A stretch of 64,000 nucleotides of DNA from Atopobium fossor DSM 15642 (lineage in GTDB: Bacteria; Actinomycetota; Coriobacteriia; Coriobacteriales; Atopobiaceae), in contig NZ_KI519553.1 of assembly GCF_000483125.1 (NCBI RefSeq), positions 62,001 to 126,000 on the forward strand, in the 5' to 3' direction. The position numbers and the translations under genes are program-made. The stretch's first letter is position 1, and each line of letters opens with the position of its first letter. Positions 4,487 to 50,721 of this stretch are shown in pieces. The notes beneath the pieces were generated by a model. The model did not search any database and had not been told where the DNA came from. It worked only from the letters and a program-made list of their open reading frames with translations.

Positions 4487-5272
4487 ATGACTTCTATCGC
4501 TTCCATGACCCCCGTCACCTCTCAAGCTCCGGTTATCAAAATTGAAGCGTTACGCAAGAGCTTTGGCTCTCATGAGGTGCTCAAGAGCATTGACTTTGAG
4601 GTCTTTTCTGGCGAGGTGGTAACCATTATTGGTGCTTCGGGTTCGGGGAAGTCTACACTGTTGCGCTGCATCAATTTGCTTGAGACTCCTGATTCTGGCC
4701 ATGTATGGTTTCATGGACAAGATTTGGCTGCTCAGCATGTGGACGTTAACAAACTGCGTTCTAGCATTGGCATGGTGTTCCAAGGTTTTAATCTGTTTAA
4801 CAACCTGAATGTATTGGATAACTGTACTCTGGCTCCTACAACACTAAAAAAGATGAATAAGCCTCAAGCAGAAGAGGTGGCTAAAAAGCATCTTGAGTCT
4901 GTAGGTCTTCTTGACTTTGCTTATGCACCGGTTACCTCACTGTCTGGTGGTCAAAAGCAGCGCGTAGCTATTGCACGAGCGCTTTGCATGGAACCCGAAC
5001 TGATGTTATTTGATGAGCCTACCAGTGCTCTTGATCCAGAAATTGTAGGTGAGGTTCTTACGGTTATGCGCGATCTTGCAGCTCAAGGTATGACTATGGT
5101 TGTGGTTACACACGAGATGGACTTTGCAAAGAACGTCTCTGACAAGGTGGTATTTATGGATCAGGGTATTATTGCAGAGATGGATGCACCTCAAAAGTTG
5201 TTTTCCCATCCGCAATGCGATCGCACACGTGAATTTTTGTCTCGCTATTTGGAAGATACAAACATTCTTTAG
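4487..5272 (+). CDS. Polar amino acid ABC transporter ATP-binding protein (GlnQ type)
   Basis: Powers the importer by ATP hydrolysis. The 261-residue protein has Walker [11 protein letters not shown]-loop [13 protein letters not shown] signature LSGGQKQR, Walker [13 protein letters not shown] and the switch histidine in VVTHEM. These match amino acid importers of the GlnQ/HisP class closely. The start codon is 5 nt after the permease stop. The first ~15 residues before the ABC fold are a short extension. Followed by a strong terminator at 5307. Confidence 0.94.
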
Positions 5273-40481: not shown

Positions 40482-40659
40482 GCGAGCTCCTTATATCAGT
40501 CTATGTCGTGCGACTTTCGCGATTATGTTACGAACTGTCGTCTTGTTGTCACAATTCATCTATCATACCGAGTATAAAGGTTCAGCGGAATGAGTATCGC
40601 AATTCCGTCATCTTGCCACATAGCACGCGCAAAAACCCATGCGGACCGGAGGAACATTA

Positions 40660-42285
40660 ATGCCACAGAGCACGAATTCAAACATTAATTCAACCACCAA
40701 TTCAGACGCAAATCAGCTGGTAGTCGTACTGGATTTTGGTGCTCAGTACGGTCAGCTTATTGCACGTCGCGTACGTGACCTGCGTGTGTACTCAGAAATC
40801 GTTCCATGTGATATTACAGCAAGTGAACTTGCAGCTATGCAGCCTTCTGCCATTATTTTGTCTGGCGGACCTGCTTCGGTATATGCGCAGGATGCCCCAG
40901 AGATGGATCCTGCAATTTTTGATATGGGCCTGCCTATTTTGGGCTTTTGCTATGGCGAGCAAATCATGGCAAAAACCCTTGGCGGCAATGTTGCTCATAC
41001 CGAGAAGGGCGAGTATGGTCCCGCAACCTTGGTACGCAGCGGTGAATCTCGTTTGTTGGATGGCACTCCTATGGATGCCCAGACGGTATGGATGAGCCAT
41101 CGCGATGCTGTAAACGTGGTGCCGGAAGGTTTTACCGTTACTGCCTCTACACAAACTTGCCCCGTGGCTGCGTACGAGAATGCAGACCGTATGATGTTTG
41201 CTACTCAGTTCCATCCCGAGGTTCGTCACACGGAGCATGGCACCACCATGCTGTCCAATTTCCTGTTTAACATTTGTGGACTTGAGGCAAATTGGACCAT
41301 GGATAACGTTATTGATACCAAGGTAGCAGAGATTCGCTCCCAAATTGGTGATGACAAGGTAATCTTGGCGCTTTCTGGTGGTGTGGACTCTGCTGTTACG
41401 GCGGCGTTGGTTCACCGTGCGGTGGGGGACCAGCTTACCTGTGTGTTTGTAAACCATGGCATGTTGCGCAAGGGTGAGCCAGAAAATGTAGAGAAGGTCT
41501 TTACGCAGGAATTTAACATTCCTCTGGTGCATGTTCAGGCTCAGGAGCGTTATGCACGTCTGTTGGCTGGTGTTACCGATCCAGAGAAGAAGCGCAAGAT
41601 TATTGGCCGCGAGTTTTGGAAGGTCTTCTTTGAAGAGGCCCAAAAGCTGGACGGCGTAAAATTCCTTGCGCAGGGCACCATTTATCCTGACATTATTGAG
41701 TCTGGCGCGCGTAAGACGGGTGGCAAGGCTTCCACCATTAAGAGCCACCACAACCTGATTCCATTCCCAGAAGGCGTTCGCTTTGATTTGGTAGAGCCTC
41801 TCGATCACTTCTTTAAGGATGAGGTGCGTGCGTTGGGTAGTGCACTTGGCTTGCCCGATGCTATGGTGCATCGCCAGCCGTTCCCCGGTCCTGGCTTGGC
41901 TATTCGCATTATTGGCGAGATTACTGCTGAAAAGCTTACTACGTTGAAGGATGCAGACCTTATTGTCCGAGAAGAGCTGGATGCTTACAACCAGCGTTTG
42001 TTTGAAGAGACAGGCGAGCGTAACTCTGAGCACGCCTGCTGGCAGTACTTTGCAGTATTGCCCGATATTCGCTCTGTTGGCGTAATGGGTGACGAGCGTA
42101 CCTATGGTCGTACGGTTATTTTGCGCGCAGTTGAGTCCAGCGATGCCATGACCGCAGACTGGGCAAAGCTGCCATACGACGTTTTGGGCCGTATTTCTGG
42201 TCGTGTAGTAAGTGAGGTTGAAGGCGTTAACCGTGTAGTGTACGACATTACACCTAAGCCGCCTGCAACGATTGAGTGGGAATAA
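40660..42285 (+). CDS. guaA: GMP synthase (glutamine-hydrolysing)
   Basis: Amidates XMP to GMP. 541 residues from ATG 40660 with GGAGGA upstream. Class I glutaminase with nucleophile cysteine in GFCYGEQ and histidine/glutamate in FHPEVRHTEHG; ATP-pyrophosphatase P-loop LSGGVDSAV; dimerisation domain with FPGPGLAIRI and the C-terminal TIEWE. Family members usually have GxCYGMQ, so Glu in place of Met is a small deviation. The guaA 3' end (GAGTGGGAATAA at 42274-42285) is a known integration target for genomic islands, and accessory genes begin right behind it. Confidence 0.97.
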   Translation: MPQSTNSNINSTTNSDANQLVVVLDFGAQYGQLIARRVRDLRVYSEIVPCDITASELAAMQPSAIILSGGPASVYAQDAPEMDPAIFDMGLPILGFCYGEQIMAKTLGGNVAHTEKGEYGPATLVRSGESRLLDGTPMDAQTVWMSHRDAVNVVPEGFTVTASTQTCPVAAYENADRMMFATQFHPEVRHTEHGTTMLSNFLFNICGLEANWTMDNVIDTKVAEIRSQIGDDKVILALSGGVDSAVTAALVHRAVGDQLTCVFVNHGMLRKGEPENVEKVFTQEFNIPLVHVQAQERYARLLAGVTDPEKKRKIIGREFWKVFFEEAQKLDGVKFLAQGTIYPDIIESGARKTGGKASTIKSHHNLIPFPEGVRFDLVEPLDHFFKDEVRALGSALGLPDAMVHRQPFPGPGLAIRIIGEITAEKLTTLKDADLIVREELDAYNQRLFEETGERNSEHACWQYFAVLPDIRSVGVMGDERTYGRTVILRAVESSDAMTADWAKLPYDVLGRISGRVVSEVEGVNRVVYDITPKPPATIEWE

Positions 42286-42407
42286 TACACAGTAAAAAGT
42301 GTATTAGTTATACCAAGTGATTTGAGGTTTTCTGGAGTGTGATTTAGTTCACCCAGTTTGCCCCGAAAAGGTGCAAGCAGAAGGAAAACCGCAGTTCAGA
42401 CACTGTA

Positions 42408-42444
42408 AAGGCTAGGTAGATTTAAGTTTCTGCCTAGCCTTTTT
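42408..42444 (+). terminator. Terminator downstream of guaA
   Basis: AAAGGCTAGG (42408-42417) / CCTAGCCTTT (42433-42442) with further T residues. About 120 nt after the guaA stop; the stretch from 42286 to 42407 shows no gene. Confidence 0.8.
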
Positions 42445-42510
42445 CATTATGTTTGTTATAGCAAATGCGCTCTGGTTACATCGGCTGCTCTCAAGTTTCT
42501 TTCAGAAAAT

Positions 42511-42527
42511 GGAACCATTTGGGAACC
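42511..42527 (+). repeat. Left imperfect inverted repeat of the accessory island
   Basis: GGAACCATTTGGGAACC, with a third GGAACC at 42542. The reverse complement of 47523-47539 (GGAACCAAACGGGAACC) matches at 14 of 17 positions. Lies 28 nt outside the last gene on this side. Confidence 0.5.
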
Positions 42528-42554
42528 AGGAGCGAAAGGTGGGAACCGCTAAGT

Positions 42555-43187
42555 CTAACTTAAATAAAATGCTGAATTGAGCACCAGGGTTTCATCCTTA
42601 ATCTCAGCCTGCTTGTTTGAGTCCAGAACCCTCCCTGCATCATCAAAGCTGGTAATTTTTGTTAGATGCATCTCTCCCGGGCCCCCGTTAAGCAACTCGG
42701 TCCTATAGATACAAACAATCACTACAAATAACGCCGAAAAGGCATGAAGGAGATTGCCTAAGTTTGCCTCTGCATAGTGCTCCGCTCGATGGTGCTTCAC
42801 CTTGTTGTAAGCCGACCACCAACCTAGACCACTCACGTCGCAATCCCCGTCGAACCACTCTGCCCACGGTGCAATGGAAAGCTCGGTCCTCAGAAACTTA
42901 ACTTTTGAGCCCTCGAACTCTGACGCATAGTTCGCTTTAACAAAATTACGGTAATACTCGATGTTCAACTTCTTCGCAAGTAGCGGATTGCTTTCGTCGT
43001 GAGCGCGCATTAAATCTTTTAATGCGACATCTACTTCAGAGCACACAGCTAAAAACAACTTCGCTATCTGAGCGCTATAGGTACAGAAATTCGCCTGTTC
43101 AGGTTCGACGAATTTGAATAGCTCAATCAGGTCATCCTCAAGAAGCAGGAAGTAATCCCAATGAATTTCACCTAATGATTTTGACAT
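42555..43187 (-). CDS. Uncharacterised protein, possibly HEPN-like
   Basis: 210 residues of unknown function. The notable piece is WWSAYNKVKHHRAEHYAEAN (~residues 123-142), an aromatic-plus-KxKHxR pattern that I associate with small helical proteins near restriction and defence genes; HEPN nucleases use R-x4-6-H, which this segment only loosely resembles. The rest is helical with a hydrophobic stretch (LHAFSALFVVIVCIY) just after. ATG 43187 has AAGGTGG 7 nt upstream, overlapping the end of the hsdS frame (12 nt away), so it is translated from the same transcript. Confidence 0.6.
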   Translation of the reverse strand: MSKSLGEIHWDYFLLLEDDLIELFKFVEPEQANFCTYSAQIAKLFLAVCSEVDVALKDLMRAHDESNPLLAKKLNIEYYRNFVKANYASEFEGSKVKFLRTELSIAPWAEWFDGDCDVSGLGWWSAYNKVKHHRAEHYAEANLGNLLHAFSALFVVIVCIYRTELLNGGPGEMHLTKITSFDDAGRVLDSNKQAEIKDETLVLNSAFYLS

Positions 43188-43199
43188 CGGTAAACCACC

Positions 43200-44546
43200 T
43201 TACCCGATTAGCGTCATGAATATTTCGACACGCTCTGCGATGCGATGCTGCTCGGCGTGTGGCGGAACGGGAACGAGAAGCTTGCCCAGCGCCTTACTGT
43301 TGACATTCGGTTGTCCGGTACCAGAGGCAGCCTCAACAAGTTGTTGCCAGTACCAAGAGCTACCCAAGTATCGGTTGATGTAGTCGGCAAGCTTCGTATT
43401 AACCAAGGATAGGCGGATTAAGTATGAAGCAAAAACAGATGGTTGTTCGGGGAGGGATTTGACCACGAAGCTCTTCCCCACTGTTCCTCCCGTACGAGCA
43501 ATCAAAACATCATCGATTTGAAGAGCGCAAGATTCGAGATCTTTTGGGTTGTCCTTGCAAAAAGGAATCGCTTCCCATGCAACTTTTCCATTCTGGATAT
43601 CCGTGATGTGCAGTATCTTTACCGATCCGTTGACAGATGCGGACGATGTATGCCCGTACTGAATTGATCTACAGAGCGAATCCATCCGAGACCACTCCCA
43701 GCCCTCGGGAATCTCGAACGGAATCTCGTCGTCGATGTATACAGGGATGGATCTACCGCTGTGCTCGAACCAGGAGCCGTTTTCGCGGTAGATGACCGGC
43801 TCGCCGCCCTTTGGCACCTTGATCCTCTTCTCCTTGATGAGCTTTGCGCGTTCCTCTCGGATGAGATCAAGCAAAACGCTGGCCGGTTCGTCGGCGGGGT
43901 CTTGCTCTACCAGATTGCTTTGCACCGCCATCTGGAGCACCGATTTGCGCAGGCGGTCCGGCAGGGCGGCGTCCAGGGCCTCCCGTGCGTCCTCGAGCCT
44001 GCCGTACTCCTCGACCAGAGGCATGAGCTCGTCGATGCTCTCGACGATGCGGCGCTGCTCGGCTAGGGGCGGGATGGGAACTAGCGCTTTCTTGACTTTA
44101 TCTATGTTGAGATTTTTGACGGCCGAGCCAGCAGCAGCTTTAGAGAACTGGTCGAACATCATCGAGCTGCTTAGGAGGCTATACAGGAAATCGACATCGA
44201 ATGCCAAGTCTGGTTTTCTAAGGACAAGCCAACCGTCATGAATACAACCACTTGTCTTCATGATATAGGGCCGTCCAAAGCTCATAGAGTTTGTAAGCAG
44301 GAAATCGCCCGCCTCGACAAAGCGGCTTTTCTTTAACCCCTCTGGGATAATCCTCTCAGCCGTTGAAAAAAATGTATTTGCCGCCTTTATCGGTATCGCC
44401 AATCTTTATCCAATTGATGCCATCTGGCGACTCGGTGACATATCCTTAATTGGGCGAGGTGATCCTCCTCGTTCAATTTCAATGAGGCTGCCAATTCTGC
44501 TCCACTCCCAGACCTCAGGGATATCAAACAGGATTTCGTCGTCCAT
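43200..44546 (-). pseudogene. hsdS: Type I restriction-modification specificity subunit (HsdS), frameshifted
   Basis: Target-recognition subunit with two TRDs: LVPIPPLAEQRRIVESIDEL and the following helix mark the first conserved region, and PEGWEWSRMDSL opens the second TRD. The gene starts at ATG 44546 (GAAGGA upstream, MDDEILFDIPEVWEW) but hits TAA at codon 47. Two compensating defects explain this: one base is missing near 44437-44445 (GGSPRPIKD continues as VTESPDGINWIKIGDTDKGG in the next frame) and one extra base sits in an A7 tract at 44366-44372 (forward strand), after which the original frame resumes at STAERIIPEG. The C-terminus stops early (VEIFMTLIG), without the second long helix. 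No hsdM or hsdR is in the window. It may be an inactive relic, a silent cassette, or phase-variable. Confidence 0.85.
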
Positions 44547-44562
44547 GCTTCCTTCTTACTAG

Positions 44563-44640
44563 TACGTGTTTTACGACTATCTGGATTGAAGTATAGTAGT
44601 ACGGATTTTACTAGTCAATAAGTTGTGATACGGTTTTTAC
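44563..44640. promoter_or_regulatory. Three direct repeats TACGnnTTTTAC in a divergent promoter region
   Basis: TACGTGTTTTAC (44563-44574), TACGGATTTTAC (44600-44611) and TACGGTTTTTAC (44629-44640); the last two continue as TAGT and TGGT. They lie between the divergent hsdS and HTH genes and are good candidate sites for the double-HTH protein. Confidence 0.55.
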
Positions 44641-44668
44641 TGGTTTATCATGTATTACAAATAACTGA

Positions 44669-45700
44669 ATGCCCAAACGAAACGAGACGCCCATGGAGAG
44701 TTCCAGACCCGGCAGAAAAAGATTTGCGAACATGCTCAAGTTCCTGAGGGAACTCAACAATGCCATGACCCAGGACAAGCTGTCCCAGGAGTCCGGCGTC
44801 GCCGTCGAGCTCATCCAGAACTACGAGCAGGAGAAAAGCTTGGCCAAGGACGAAAACAAGGAGCGCCTAGCCGAGGCCCTTGGGGCCTGCCCCGCCGTTT
44901 TCCTGGCCATCGATCTGAGGGACCGCGTCTCTAACGAGGTGAACGACGAAGTCAGCGTGGTGGCCCAGCTGCTGTTCCAGATCGCCAGCTCCTACGACCT
45001 GAGGCCCGTCTACGACGAGGGCAACGTGAACATCAGCTACGGCCTTGCCGGCAATGGTGGCTACATCGAGCACGCCCTTGCGGAGTGGGTCGAGCTTGCC
45101 GAGGCGGAACATCGCAACACCATGCTAGCGGTCGATTCGGGCAAGTCGAAGGTGGAGACTGCCATCAGGGACAGGATCGCGGAGCGCTCCTTCCGCGAGC
45201 TGAGGAAGTTCGAGACGGGCTACAACAAGCCCTACAAGGCCAGCGACTACCCCACTTGCCCTCCGAGGCTCGGAGAGACCGTTAAGCGCCTTAGGAGTGC
45301 TTGTGGGCTTACACAGGACGATCTTGCCATGGCCGCAGGCGTGAGCGTATTCACCGTGCGCGGCTACGAGCAAGGCAAGCGTACACCCAACGACGAGCAG
45401 CGTGTTGCCATCGCCAAGGCCTTGGACGTGCCGCCCGAGGTGCTGATCGACTTCGGCATCACCAACCCCAACGAAGCTTTCCACTACCTGATGGAGATGA
45501 CCCACGTGTACTACATGACACCGCAGATGGGCATTATCGGACCGGTTATTGCGGACGATAGGAACCTGATTAGGATCGGCTTGCCCAAGCGGCCGAGCCT
45601 CGACAAGCTGTTCCACGATTGGTATTTCGCCTGGGTCGAACTCCAAGAGACTGGCGACACCAAGAAGTATCAAAACTGGCAAGACCATTACGAGGGATAG
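44669..45700 (+). CDS. Double helix-turn-helix (XRE) regulator of the island
   Basis: 343 residues with two Cro/C1-type HTH domains: MTQDKLSQESGVAVELIQNYEQ (~residues 33-54, split by its length) and LTQDDLAMAAGVSVFTVRGY near residue 205. Between and after are helical parts with no domain I recognise. It is clearly richer in G and C than its neighbours, a sign of separate origin. No convincing Shine-Dalgarno precedes ATG 44669 or the in-frame ATG 44693, so the transcript may be nearly leaderless. It ends 13 nt before the KAP-type NTPase and probably regulates that gene and the divergent hsdS unit through the TACG repeats. Confidence 0.78.
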   Translation: MPKRNETPMESSRPGRKRFANMLKFLRELNNAMTQDKLSQESGVAVELIQNYEQEKSLAKDENKERLAEALGACPAVFLAIDLRDRVSNEVNDEVSVVAQLLFQIASSYDLRPVYDEGNVNISYGLAGNGGYIEHALAEWVELAEAEHRNTMLAVDSGKSKVETAIRDRIAERSFRELRKFETGYNKPYKASDYPTCPPRLGETVKRLRSACGLTQDDLAMAAGVSVFTVRGYEQGKRTPNDEQRVAIAKALDVPPEVLIDFGITNPNEAFHYLMEMTHVYYMTPQMGIIGPVIADDRNLIRIGLPKRPSLDKLFHDWYFAWVELQETGDTKKYQNWQDHYEG

Positions 45701-45713
45701 GAGTTGTTCGAAT

Positions 45714-47516
45714 ATGAGCGAAATGAACCCTACGTCGTGGCTGACTGATCAATTTCTAGACTACGTAGATGACGCAAACCATAGGTATGCTGTCGTCCTT
45801 GAGGGCGAATGGGGCTCTGGCAAAACACACTATCTCGAAACCGTTCTTGCCCCAGCCCTTAAAAAGCACGGTAAAACCCTTATCAGGGTTTCCTTGTTTG
45901 GAGTAAAAGACTCACGCGATCTTTATGAGAAGCTTGTAGCAGCGCTTTTGCACCTAAGCGAAGATGATAAGGGCAAAAAGAAGGCAGCCCTCCGCGGCGC
46001 TGTCTCTCAAATTCCAGCTTTGTTTTCTACGCTTACTAACTTGGTGGGCGTTCCTATCAACTTGAACGCGAACGCCAAAACAGTCATTGATTTACTCATC
46101 GGAGAAAAGCACGTTGTCGCATTCGACGATACCGAACGTCGTGCCGAGGATGCAGATGATTTGTCGTTGTTTGGAGCTATCAACGATTTAGTGGAAGGCA
46201 AAAACGCCAAAGTAATACTTGTAACAAATGGAGCCGATAGCGGAAATTCTAATCAAAGAGGTTTTGATCGAGACATCAGAGAAAAACTTGTATGGAAGAT
46301 TTTCCCCTACAAGCCTTCTTCCAATGATTTGGTAAACGATATTTTCGGTAGTCACGACTTCGGCAATACTACCATCGACCGCCTCGAATGCATACAATCA
46401 GCCGCGGTTTTGGCAAGCTGCAACAATGTCAGGTCGATGCTCAGAGCGGAACCGTTCATCAAAGATATTTGCTCCATTTCGGCATTAGAACGTGAATCGA
46501 TCGCAGAGTCAACACGCCAACGCGCATTGATCGACGCGATTCACTTTGCTTTGCTGAGATGCAAAGGCGTTGACCTCAAGGGGGAAATTACTTACGAGGA
46601 AAAGGCCGGGCTTACTCCAGAGTATATGGTCTATCTTGGAAAAAAAGAGCTGAGGGAGAAGTATGCGGATTTCGCATGCATTGAAGAGTACTTTGACCCT
46701 CGCAGTGTCACCAGCGAAATCAACCTCGAAGAAGGCTTCTTAAGCTATGTGGAAAGGCGCTACCCAGATTCGCCAGATACCGTCGAGTTTCTAGAAATCA
46801 AAGACGCCCTAGCGAATTTCCACGAACTAAGTGACGGTGAAATGGCTCCCATCATCGCACGTCTAACCTCATCAATTCGCAAGGCGAAGTACTCACCATC
46901 TTTGATCAGAGACGCGGTTAGCTGGAATTGTCAGCTAGCTGACCTTGGCTTCGACAACTTGCTTTCGCAAGAAGAACTTACGAATTGCTGCAAACAAACC
47001 ATCGACAACGACCCAGCTAAAGCACAGGCATTCTTTAAGAATGGGGCTTTTCTCTTCTCTCCGGCAACCGAGGAAATAGAAACAATTTTGGCGACGCTAA
47101 GGGACCATTCAGACAAAGCCTATCTAGAGCGCATCAAACTAGACAACTCAATGGAAATAGACCTGTCGCAAGCCAACTGTGGCATCAACCTCGCTTGCAG
47201 AATGGACGAAACCTGGAAGAAAGACGCGGGGCACATACTTGATTACCAGCCCAAAACGATAGTTGCCGCTTTCCTCGCTTCAGACGGAAGGGGACAAAAC
47301 GAAATCAGGAATGTTTTCATTTGCATGAGGTCGTACTTCTTCTCGTTTATGGTTGATGGGGACTTTGCTAATTGGCTAGAGGGAATCAAGCAGTTACTTA
47401 TTGATTCCGCGGACTGCGAGCACATGACAGACCTCAGGAAAAACTGGTTCATTAGCAACATAGACGATCTGTTATCCCAAGTTAGCCAGAGAGCAGAGTC
47501 CAGTAGAGACAGTTAG
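45714..47516 (+). CDS. KAP-type P-loop NTPase, candidate defence ATPase
   Basis: 600 residues. Walker A GEWGSGKT (31-38) follows a short N-terminal segment (NPTSWLTDQFLDYV), and Walker B VVAFDDTER lies at ~134-142; this start-to-Walker layout and the FDD motif are those of KAP/P-loop STAND-like ATPases. A sensor-like KVILVTNGAD follows. The C-terminal ~350 residues are helical and unassigned, with no membrane segment typical of classical KAP proteins. AGGAG is 10 nt before the ATG. Such NTPases recur in phage-defence islands, but here the defence role is inference from context: HsdS, a possible HEPN protein and an XRE regulator are adjacent. Confidence 0.72.
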   Translation: MSEMNPTSWLTDQFLDYVDDANHRYAVVLEGEWGSGKTHYLETVLAPALKKHGKTLIRVSLFGVKDSRDLYEKLVAALLHLSEDDKGKKKAALRGAVSQIPALFSTLTNLVGVPINLNANAKTVIDLLIGEKHVVAFDDTERRAEDADDLSLFGAINDLVEGKNAKVILVTNGADSGNSNQRGFDRDIREKLVWKIFPYKPSSNDLVNDIFGSHDFGNTTIDRLECIQSAAVLASCNNVRSMLRAEPFIKDICSISALERESIAESTRQRALIDAIHFALLRCKGVDLKGEITYEEKAGLTPEYMVYLGKKELREKYADFACIEEYFDPRSVTSEINLEEGFLSYVERRYPDSPDTVEFLEIKDALANFHELSDGEMAPIIARLTSSIRKAKYSPSLIRDAVSWNCQLADLGFDNLLSQEELTNCCKQTIDNDPAKAQAFFKNGAFLFSPATEEIETILATLRDHSDKAYLERIKLDNSMEIDLSQANCGINLACRMDETWKKDAGHILDYQPKTIVAAFLASDGRGQNEIRNVFICMRSYFFSFMVDGDFANWLEGIKQLLIDSADCEHMTDLRKNWFISNIDDLLSQVSQRAESSRDS

Positions 47517-47522
47517 ATGGTT

Positions 47523-47539
47523 GGTTCCCGTTTGGTTCC
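47523..47539 (-). repeat. Right imperfect inverted repeat of the accessory island
   Basis: GGTTCCCGTTTGGTTCC, 6 nt after the KAP-type NTPase stop. Pairs with 42511-42527 (14 of 17). Each copy contains two GGAACC hexamers 11 bp apart. Confidence 0.5.
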
Positions 47540-47624
47540 AAAACTGCTGAAACCTGGTAGCAACCCAGTAAACTACGTGAACTCAAAGTAACTGGAGGAC
47601 ACTGGAGTAATCGAATCCCTCGTA

Positions 47625-47636
47625 GAGTGGGAGTAG
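47625..47636 (+). other. guaA-3'-end-like 12-mer, possible attachment-site remnant
   Basis: GAGTGGGAGTAG resembles the end of guaA, GAGTGGGAATAA (10 of 12), and both read Glu-Trp-Glu-stop. Position ~110 nt beyond the last island gene fits a far-end att site. No integrase gene is present, and a chance match is possible. Confidence 0.4.
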
Positions 47637-47707
47637 ATAAATTTGGAGTGTTTGATAAATTCCTGATTTGTAGAGATAGAGAAATAATAATTTAGAAGGA
47701 AGTCAAT

Positions 47708-48468
47708 GTGGGCACTGGAAAAGCAGAGGTAAAAAGGCAAATTATAAAATGGCCAAAGCGGTTACGAACAGTGTATTGGGAAAACAGTGTCCTGACTTTT
47801 GATGGAGAAAAGCAATTTGAAGTCCCAGAATTGAGTTCGGAGATCATGGAGCGGCTTGCCGGCTACACTCTAGTGGGCTTCCATGTGAAAGACTATCCCA
47901 TAAGAGATGAACTGCTGGCCCCCTTCGCTGGACACAGAAAGCATGGTCAACTTTGGTGTGAAGGACAGTGCCCTCACCGATGCTTGCTTTCCCATCTTTT
48001 CCACTATGCCCAAACTTACGATATCTGCTGCTGGATGGCAACACCAACATCAACGGCAGTAGCCTTTCCACCCTGCAAGGCTGCAGGCTGGATCTTTTGA
48101 CCCTTAACCATACCGGGCTGGATGATACCGGTCTGCTCCAGGCAGCCTCCATCCCCAAGCTCTCCCACATCCAAATTGACCATACCGCTGTTACTTATGA
48201 GGACCTGTTGACCATTTGGGAGAAGTATGTGAGTGAAAAGCTCCGTATGGGTTATCGACCTCTGGTTCTCTCATACAGTGTCCAGGGTACCTACAAGAGG
48301 GAACAGTTCCTTGATGCGGAGCAGATTACTCGGAACAATCTCTACATCTACACCAGAGATAAAAACAACAGCCTTAACCATCGCTTTCTCATGAAGTGGG
48401 TGGGCGAGAGCTGGAAGATTGACGCGGTGCAGGAGCGGCTGAATGGCTGGCAGCGGGGAGGATTGTGA
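47708..48468 (+). pseudogene. Leucine-rich-repeat-like gene broken by two frameshifts
   Basis: Three frames carry one protein. From GTG 47708 (AAGGAAG upstream) it reads to about LLAPFAGHRK; the sequence then continues one base on as VNFGVKDSALTDACFPIF (47942-47995), and again one base on from about 48010 as LRYLLLDGNTNINGSSLSTL to the stop at 48468. Each step fits one extra base, near 47940 and in the AAA of 48008-48010. The middle has LRR-like spacing (LRYLLLDGN, LDLLTLNHTGLDD, LSHIQIDHT). Function unknown. The look is Firmicutes-like, suggesting transfer. Confidence 0.65.
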
Positions 48469-49727: not shown

Positions 49728-49800
49728 GTATATTTATTGCCGATATCGGCAATAAATATACTCTTTCTGTTATAATAATCCCATCAGGTTTTTGCCGATA
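49728..49800 (+). promoter_or_regulatory. 34-bp perfect palindrome and third half-site, probable Fic operator
   Basis: Palindrome 49728-49761, left half GTATATTTATTGCCGAT, contains TTGCCGATA facing its own complement. A further TTGCCGATA stands at 49792-49800, touching the Shine-Dalgarno. TATAAT at 49771-49776 is a good -10 between the two. Likely bound by the HTH domain of the Fic protein itself. Confidence 0.65.
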
Positions 49801-49815
49801 AGGAGGTTGGACCCG

Positions 49816-50721
49816 ATGGGGTTTCTTTCTGCTGCTGAGATTGCCAAGCTTTGGGGTGTGTCCGAGAGGAGTGTCCGCAACTACTGTTCCCAGGGTCGCG
49901 TGCCAGGTGCCTTTCTCACGGGAAAAACTTGGAATATCCCCGCCGATGCAGCAAAACCCATTCGCTCAAATGCAAAAGTGTCTGCAATAAATCCTCTACT
50001 TATGCGTCTTCATGAAGAAAAGACGTCAAAAATCAAAGGCGGTATCTATCACAAGGTTCAGATTGAGCTAACTTATAACTCCAACCATATCGAGGGAAGT
50101 AGGCTTTCTTTTGACCAGACGCGCATGATCTTTGAAACTGCGACCATAGGTATCGAGGATGAAATCATATGCGTAGATGATATTGTGGAAACCCAGAATC
50201 ACTTTCGCGCAATTGACTACATCATCGACCATGCGCAAGACCCTCTTTCTGAGGTCATGATTAAAGAACTTCATCGCATCCTAAAAATTGGAACAACAGA
50301 TTCTGCGAAGGATTGGTTTGCTGTTGGGGAATATAAGCGCTTGCCAAACGAGGTTGGTGGACGACAAACCACTCTTCCAGAAAATGTCGCCAAAGAAATG
50401 AAGGCACTCTTAAAAACGTATGATCCTCACGTAAAACATACCCTCAAAGACATCATCGACTTCCATGTGCACTTTGAGTGCATCCATCCCTTCCAAGATG
50501 GTAATGGCCGTGTGGGTAGACTCGTAATGTTCAAGGAATGTCTCGTTAGCAACGTGGTGCCGTTTATCATCGCTGATGACATGAAGTCCTTCTACTATCG
50601 CGGACTTGCTAAATGGAATAACGAAAAAGGATATCTCACTGACACTTGCCTTGCAGCACAAGATAGGTTTAAAGCTACACTTGATTATTTTCGGATTGCA
50701 TATACCGAAAATGGCAATTAA
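49816..50721 (+). CDS. Fic family protein with N-terminal helix-turn-helix
   Basis: Predicted AMP-transferase (or related NMP-transferase). 301 residues from ATG 49816, AAGGAGG 9 nt upstream; the frame is open from a TTG at 49792 that lies within the operator half-site. N-terminal MerR-like/helix-turn-helix (FLSAAEIAKLWGVSERSVRN, ~2-21). Inhibitory motif SNHIEG (~89-94), which in class II Fic proteins blocks the ATP site, and the catalytic HPFQDGNGRVGR (~223-234), fully conserved. Partner antitoxin is not needed in this class. Self-regulation through the 49728 palindrome is likely. Confidence 0.9.
   Translation: MGFLSAAEIAKLWGVSERSVRNYCSQGRVPGAFLTGKTWNIPADAAKPIRSNAKVSAINPLLMRLHEEKTSKIKGGIYHKVQIELTYNSNHIEGSRLSFDQTRMIFETATIGIEDEIICVDDIVETQNHFRAIDYIIDHAQDPLSEVMIKELHRILKIGTTDSAKDWFAVGEYKRLPNEVGGRQTTLPENVAKEMKALLKTYDPHVKHTLKDIIDFHVHFECIHPFQDGNGRVGRLVMFKECLVSNVVPFIIADDMKSFYYRGLAKWNNEKGYLTDTCLAAQDRFKATLDYFRIAYTENGN

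Follow-up and report, generated by a model that had tools for sequence, protein, structure and literature searches.

The guaA island of Atopobium fossor as the probable deletion product of a Coriobacteriia integrative element specific for guaA

Directly behind guaA, in a 64,000-nucleotide stretch of the genome of Atopobium fossor DSM 15642 (contig NZ_KI519553.1, positions 62,001 to 126,000 of the forward strand; hereafter the window), lies a compact island with a helix-turn-helix (HTH) regulator and a P-loop nucleoside triphosphatase (NTPase) on one strand, and the specificity gene hsdS with a further open reading frame (ORF1) on the other. Is this a small immune system in its own right, as a first-pass annotation had suggested for the HTH-NTPase pair, or a piece of something else? 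We conclude, with a probability of about 0.8, that the island arose by deletion from an integrative element of Coriobacteriia that is specific for guaA. It is an informative, decayed example of a mobile element whose kind is already known, not a new stand-alone immune system, and the twist on that known kind is a regulator-linked effector slot. All four reading frames exist where they had been placed (42555-43187 and 43200-44402 on the minus strand, 44669-45700 and 45714-47516 on the plus strand).

The island occupies 42286-47636, with the guaA 3′ end on its left and a duplicate of that end on its right. The link to guaA had been seen before; the precise ends, which give a vaguely outlined "defence island" clear limits, a target site and a history, are new. 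They consist of the following features.

40639..42285, plus strand: guaA (GMP synthase), an ORF; host gene, with the integration site at its 3′ end
42274..42285, plus strand: core of the left attachment site (attL), GAGTGGGAATAA, the last codons of guaA, with an exact second copy at 47625
42286..42530, plus strand: conserved left end of the element
42290-42304: CAGTAAAAAGTGTAT, an inverted operator-like copy within the left end, matching 44628-44642 in inverted orientation
42407-42442: terminator in the left end
42511..42527, plus strand: left inverted arm GGAACCATTTGGGAACC, a probable integrase arm site
47523..47539, minus strand: right inverted arm GGAACCAAACGGGAACC
47625..47636, plus strand: core of the right attachment site (attR), GAGTGGGAGTAG, the duplicate of the guaA end

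A search of the 64 kb that allowed one mismatch gave no third copy of the guaA-end core. The arms are inverted copies of GGAACCAnnnGGGAACC (42511-42527 on the plus strand, 47539-47523 on the minus strand), and two such matches arose in none of 100 shuffles. Duplicated guaA ends with inverted arms inside them are typical of an element that a site-specific recombinase has inserted. There is no integrase within the island, and the closest relative in the genome is 33% identical over half its length. The window contains no tRNA genes, and no Rfam family reached its threshold in the region. Neither of two genomes of the same genus offers an empty site for comparison, since one (G218) has a guaA array with cores at positions 209, 3304 and 8057, and the other (G237) has unrelated DNA 3′ of guaA, with no second core found in 15 kb.

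The nature of the parent is suggested by relatives of the HTH protein, which is rare at full length: G274 encodes one that is 57% identical, and locus L143, from an Eggerthellales metagenome-assembled genome, one that is 76% identical, while a truncated copy (75%) occurs in an Adlercreutzia genome (G201). G274 and L143, from other families of the order, are intact relatives with the double-HTH gene and share one plan: attL, restriction genes and mob-int-xis, then the divergent double-HTH gene with a different effector, and attR. The G274 guaA element (13.6 kb) reads att, GmrSD-like gene, hsdS, hsdM, hsdR region, mob, int and xis, all on the same strand, then divergently the HTH gene and a gene for a 365-residue protein, and att. 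The L143 element (7.9 kb, cores at 4756 and 12627) carries genes for a ScaI-type restriction endonuclease and its methyltransferase, a NikA-like mob, int (with Arm-DNA-bind_4, SAM-like and catalytic domains) and xis, followed across the control region by the HTH gene and an Apea-HEPN gene. The left end of the window element aligns with both of theirs at 72-74% identity, including CAGTAAAAAGTGTAT, the terminator and the arm. Element ends, control region and the duplicated GAGTGGGA core are common to the window and the integrase-bearing members. An integrase and xis of their own lie between the att sites of G274 and L143 but not of the window copy, which we call a decayed derivative rather than a functional member because its island contains no integrase. 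As the sequences show, a tyrosine recombinase puts the intact relatives into the last 8-12 bases of guaA, so that the gene stays complete and its end is duplicated at the other side of the element.

Such insertions are common. Of 120 genomes in the order 108 had a guaA orthologue, and the DNA 3′ of it was sampled from about 60 of the order's genomes, giving 62 loci with 20 kb scanned in each. These contain 38 extra guaA-end cores in forward orientation and none in reverse, where mononucleotide shuffles predict 0.15 forward. At least 24 of the 62 loci have one or more extra cores; the window and G201 had been picked for other reasons, and leaving both out the count is 22. Integrases related to the G274/L143 type are found at about a quarter of the loci, mostly 0.9-1.7 kb 3′ of guaA. 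The longest tandem arrays (L091, L108) have five cores in a row, equal to four extra copies. The arrays of up to five cores in L091, L108, L119 and other loci, many of whose segments are without an integrase of this family, resemble stacked elements like composite staphylococcal cassette chromosome (SCC) islands. The guaA end (core GAGTGGGA) is therefore a busy integration site across Coriobacteriia, often holding several elements in tandem. We found no paper on guaA elements in Coriobacteriia in the open-access literature; the type of site is already known from the island GIsul2.

How the window copy came to lack its mobility genes can be read from the minus-strand genes.

42555..43187, minus strand: ORF1, 210 amino acids, probable HEPN-like fold, associated with type I restriction-modification (R-M)
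43200..44546, minus strand: hsdS remnant with two single-base frameshifts; about 83 N-terminal codons are missing, and its 5′ end is joined to the start codon of xis
44538..44546, minus strand: deletion junction, where ATGGACGAC (xis codons 1-3) meets the hsdS DDE codons

The gene types assigned earlier to this pair are right, but the hsdS frame had been given a 5′ end that is not the real one. The frame 43200-44402 codes for a type I S protein (E 1.6e-18). The remnant is broken by single-base indels near 44366 (a 7-base homopolymer) and near 44438, about 70 bases apart, with an in-frame stop. At its start, L143 and G274 xis read ATGGACGACTA (M-D-D-Y), whereas in the window the same start codon and its upstream DNA run into hsdS, ATGGACGACGAA, giving M-D-D-E-I-L-F-D-I-P-E-V-W-E-W. 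The intact G274 hsdS reaches the corresponding C-I-D-D-E-I-P-F-E-I-P-E-G-W-E-W (CIDDEIPFEIPEGWEW) after about 83 further residues. The junction is thus ATGGACGAC followed by GAA in the window, compared with ATGGACGACTAT in xis and (I)DDE in hsdS. The simplest event that would account for it is one deletion between the AT-c/g-GACGAC copies in hsdS and xis. Such a deletion, through GACGAC microhomology, would have taken most of xis together with int, mob, hsdR, hsdM and the start of hsdS. Loss of xis, int and mob leaves the window element unable to move by itself. After the deletion hsdS would have decayed, and ORF1 would have been left behind with it; the regulator and the NTPase are intact. 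A second guaA island without int, in G201, has its own junction (L075, 8258-8400), where the truncated HTH gene has been fused with the start of an ORF similar to EcoRI-type methylases; this is an independent deletion, and the effector was again spared.

The island does not amount to a type I R-M system: hsdM and hsdR are absent, as had been reported, and the S subunit is truncated and frameshifted. The genome is not without hsdM, which is present twice elsewhere along with several S genes. Those two loci (L042, G000:C1:494000-509000; L043, G000:C2:135000-146000) contain multiple hsdS pieces, some in each orientation, near an integrase-like gene, and are probably invertible, phase-variable specificity loci.

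ORF1 contains WWSAYNKVKHHR and matched nothing in Pfam, PADLOC or NCBIfam. Its family starts 12 bases after hsdS, and we place it with hsdS because in G251 a homologue directly follows hsdR-hsdM-hsdS. The structural model is helical (predicted local distance difference test score, pLDDT, 75), and its leading structural matches are HEPN or HEPN-like, with Z from 9.4 to 6.7 (Csm6 HEPN 9.4, 4nqf 8.9, HI0074 8.8, HEPN-MNT 7.4), values that lie below the safe Z level for helical bundles. Foldseek returned no match with E below 0.001. The earlier suggestion of a HEPN protein is probably correct as far as the fold is concerned. The catalytic R-x(4-6)-H motif of HEPN proteins is absent; an invariant YNxxKH lies at the place of HEPN RNxxxH, all five sequences having Tyr where the catalytic Arg would stand, and judging from these residues RNase activity is doubtful.

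On the other side of the junction lies the control region, which would have faced xis in the parent.

44563..44644, plus strand: divergent control region with three operator-like repeats (44563-44578, 44600-44615, 44629-44644)
44618-44590, minus strand: predicted promoter with -35 box TTGACT, overlapped by the second repeat
44669..45700, plus strand: double-HTH (XRE-type) regulator of the element, 343 amino acids, two HTH_3-type domains (Pfam)

That two divergent units share this region had been recognized, and its sequence is nearly identical to the xis-HTH intergenic region of G274 and L143. The repeats are of the type TACGnnTTTTACkA and are likely operators of the HTH protein. Support for the promoter comes from conservation and not from a promoter scan, the matches of which in the control region were not above chance. 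Among 379 genomes of the order, 3 have a 20-base pattern taken from the region, always with the double-HTH gene, and a reversed control gave none; the operator pattern had no match in viral contigs. A related sequence in inverse orientation stands directly behind attL in the window, G274 and L143. The two halves of the HTH protein are 35% alike, and other guaA elements (L101, L133, L138, L140, L113) encode relatives with a single HTH domain, whose genes stand between att and xis-int on the opposite strand. The HTH gene is thus a standard part of such elements, and the window type of it has become a tandem double unit. As judged by this shared arrangement, the HTH gene, the operators and the promoter belong to the guaA-specific integrative element, with the HTH gene divergent from xis-int. 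The regulator, opposite to xis-int-mob, probably represses excision through the three repeats, and it may also bind the similar sequence at attL. The base composition of its gene (G+C content 0.59, third-position GC3 0.81) departs from that of the window (0.454), which bears out part of an earlier remark that the island differs from its surroundings; the NTPase gene, at 0.468, is close to the window mean.

What follows the HTH gene changes from element to element. In the window it is the KAP NTPase, 13 bases after the HTH stop codon; in G274 the 365-residue protein, which has no domain match, also at 13 bases; and in L143 the Apea-HEPN protein, at 2 bases. At guaA in G201, behind the truncated HTH gene, an OLD-type ATPase-TOPRIM gene and then an Abi_2 gene are found, and in the guaA array of G044, where the HTH gene is a tail remnant, an nSTAND gene fills the slot; the effector frame is intact in both. 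With five different genes in five genomes, whatever stands next to the HTH gene is exchangeable cargo. The nSTAND protein of G044 (L119) has about 1220 residues, and a similar one lies in L039 (G194) beside a GmrSD gene and an NTPase homologue. The effectors usually belong to defence families, and they are probably co-transcribed with the HTH gene and controlled by its product. Somewhat speculatively, and with the odds against it, release of the repressor by phage or DNA damage would both fire the effector and ready the element to leave, a single control region coupling the two. If so, the slot effectors, including the KAP NTPase and the 365-residue protein of G274, would form a ready list of new antiphage genes. 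In any case, a fixed slot behind a conserved regulator offers an easy route to new defence genes of gut Actinobacteria, by reading the gene 3′ of the double-HTH gene.

The cargo of the window copy is the remaining plus-strand gene.

45714..47516, plus strand: KAP-type AAA+ NTPase, 600 amino acids, with an all-helical C-terminal half, in the cargo slot

The first-pass description of the plus-strand pair as an HTH protein and a P-loop NTPase proved correct. KAP_NTPase (PF07693) matches with E 5e-9 and 36.2 bits against a cut-off of 20, and the protein has a Walker A motif GEWGSGKT and an FDDTERR motif (DDxER); G31-K37 and the acidic Walker B residues D138-D139 are conserved in 12 sequences. The PADLOC candidate profile PDC-S49 (624 positions, no curated cut-off) matches at E 3e-28 over residues 13-240; no paper on it was found in the open-access literature. 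Many KAP NTPases, though not all, carry membrane helices inside the P-loop domain. None is predicted here, the highest 19-residue hydropathy being 1.26. The model (pLDDT 80) has an AAA+ core like that of TnsC, MuB, ORC and Cdc6, a resemblance that is not specific for function, and the C-terminal half is barely covered by the matches. A sequence search of solved structures gave no convincing relative.

Homologues of the NTPase were found in 13 other genomes among 298 of the class. In G181 and G216 the homologue stands directly behind hsdM-hsdS-hsdR, and others are near GmrSD and nSTAND, AAA-subtilase, GmrSD and RiboL-PSP HEPN, AbiEi or AAA_21 genes. Together with the PDC-S49 match, these R-M, GmrSD, AAA-subtilase and AbiE neighbours uphold the description of the gene content as defence-type. 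From family, fold and neighbourhood the protein is most likely a soluble AAA+ defence ATPase that still acts against phages, its helical C-terminal half sensing or transmitting a signal. A phage origin was considered and dropped: annotated phages contain no relative of the NTPase, and viral contigs none of the HTH protein or the NTPase. Plasmid relatives are 26-27% identical and make up 68 records, 67 of them from Klebsiella (e.g. NZ_CP115683.1). Among the matches listed most of these plasmids are about 110 kb and most are non-mobilizable, and they may be phage-plasmids.

The proposal with which the locus first came to notice, a stand-alone HTH-NTPase antiphage module that moved into a guaA island, draws on the common strand and 13-base spacing of the two genes as well as on the PDC-S49 match and the defence neighbours of the homologues. 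It fails on conservation of the pair. No HTH gene of this kind was seen near any other NTPase locus and no NTPase at any other HTH locus found, and elsewhere the HTH gene is tied to xis-int and followed by other effectors; we reject the module as improbable. A toxin-antitoxin pair, in which the HTH protein would keep a toxic effector repressed or neutralized until its own loss or inactivation upon infection, is conceivable but unlikely. The order of regulator before effector, the exchange of effectors precisely after the HTH stop and a low-scoring resemblance to antitoxin-type XRE proteins in NCBIfam would suit it, but G201 and G044 keep an intact effector frame with a truncated or tail-only HTH gene, which shows that the HTH protein is not strictly needed for harmlessness, and the single-HTH relatives leave little or no room for an effector.

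A slightly less likely account takes the compact form without int as no product of decay but a cassette mobilized in trans by other guaA integrases, as integrase-less SCC-type elements are. Both cores and both arms are intact in the window, G201 too has no int between its cores, and many att-bounded guaA segments showed no integrase in a search limited to this family. Those segments may, however, use integrases of other families, the source genome has no close integrase, and hsdS is cut exactly at the xis start codon and frameshifted. That hsdS and ORF1 are a spare specificity module for the genome's other type I systems, with their two hsdM loci and several S genes, is the least probable of all; we discarded it on account of the truncation, the frameshifts and an identity of only 25% (E 7e-5) with one of their S frames. 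The reading as a deletion derivative has evidence standing against it as well. Reconstruction of the parent depends on just two intact double-HTH relatives, both of other families, and its hsdM and hsdR are deduced from G274 and from the neighbours of ORF1 homologues in other genomes. Both hsdS frameshifts may be assembly errors, and an intact NTPase frame may mean simply that the deletion was recent. The defence function of the NTPase is guilt by association, and its PDC-S49 match is confined to the N-terminal 230 residues.

Beyond attR, just outside the island, an NTF2-fold immunity protein (Imm-NTF2, E 1.5e-13) is encoded at 47968-48468; the upstream ORF 47708-48100 overlaps it in another frame, and the immunity gene looks frameshifted. 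A Fic/DOC family protein with an N-terminal helix-turn-helix match follows at 49792-50721, preceded by a TfoX_N-like gene and an alpha/beta-hydrolase-like ORF in an A+T-richer stretch with a G+C content of about 0.40-0.45.

Among known systems the closest in target are genomic islands at the 3′ end of guaA, such as GIsul2, which is described for gamma-proteobacteria and has the core 5′-GAGTGGGA-3′ and sulphonamide resistance as cargo (PMC9376610). The term guaA is also used in a survey of integration sites of streptococcal integrative and conjugative elements (PMC4701971). The Coriobacteriia elements share with GIsul2 the target, the core, duplicated ends and islands with more than two att sites. 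They differ in host and in cargo, which is restriction and defence rather than sulphonamide resistance, and the window copy is without an integrase. ORF1 and hsdS recall type I R-M loci with an extra HEPN-like gene, as in G251, where the ORF1 family likewise lies 12 bases after hsdS; the window copy is without hsdR, hsdM and the hsdS start. The NTPase is like other KAP NTPases and PDC-S49 in its GEWGSGKT and FDDTERR motifs and in the defence neighbourhoods of its homologues, and unlike them in having no predicted membrane segment and in matching PDC-S49 at the N-terminus only. Finally, the effector slot resembles the anti-phage hotspots of P2/P4-type prophages and satellites, which have a variable defence slot that in Vibrionaceae prophages lies between the cI repressor and integrase genes (PMC9122126). 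In both cases one variable defence gene slot sits beside conserved mobile-element genes, but in the Coriobacteriia the slot comes after the regulator, at the far side from int, and the integrative element that contains it is not a phage.

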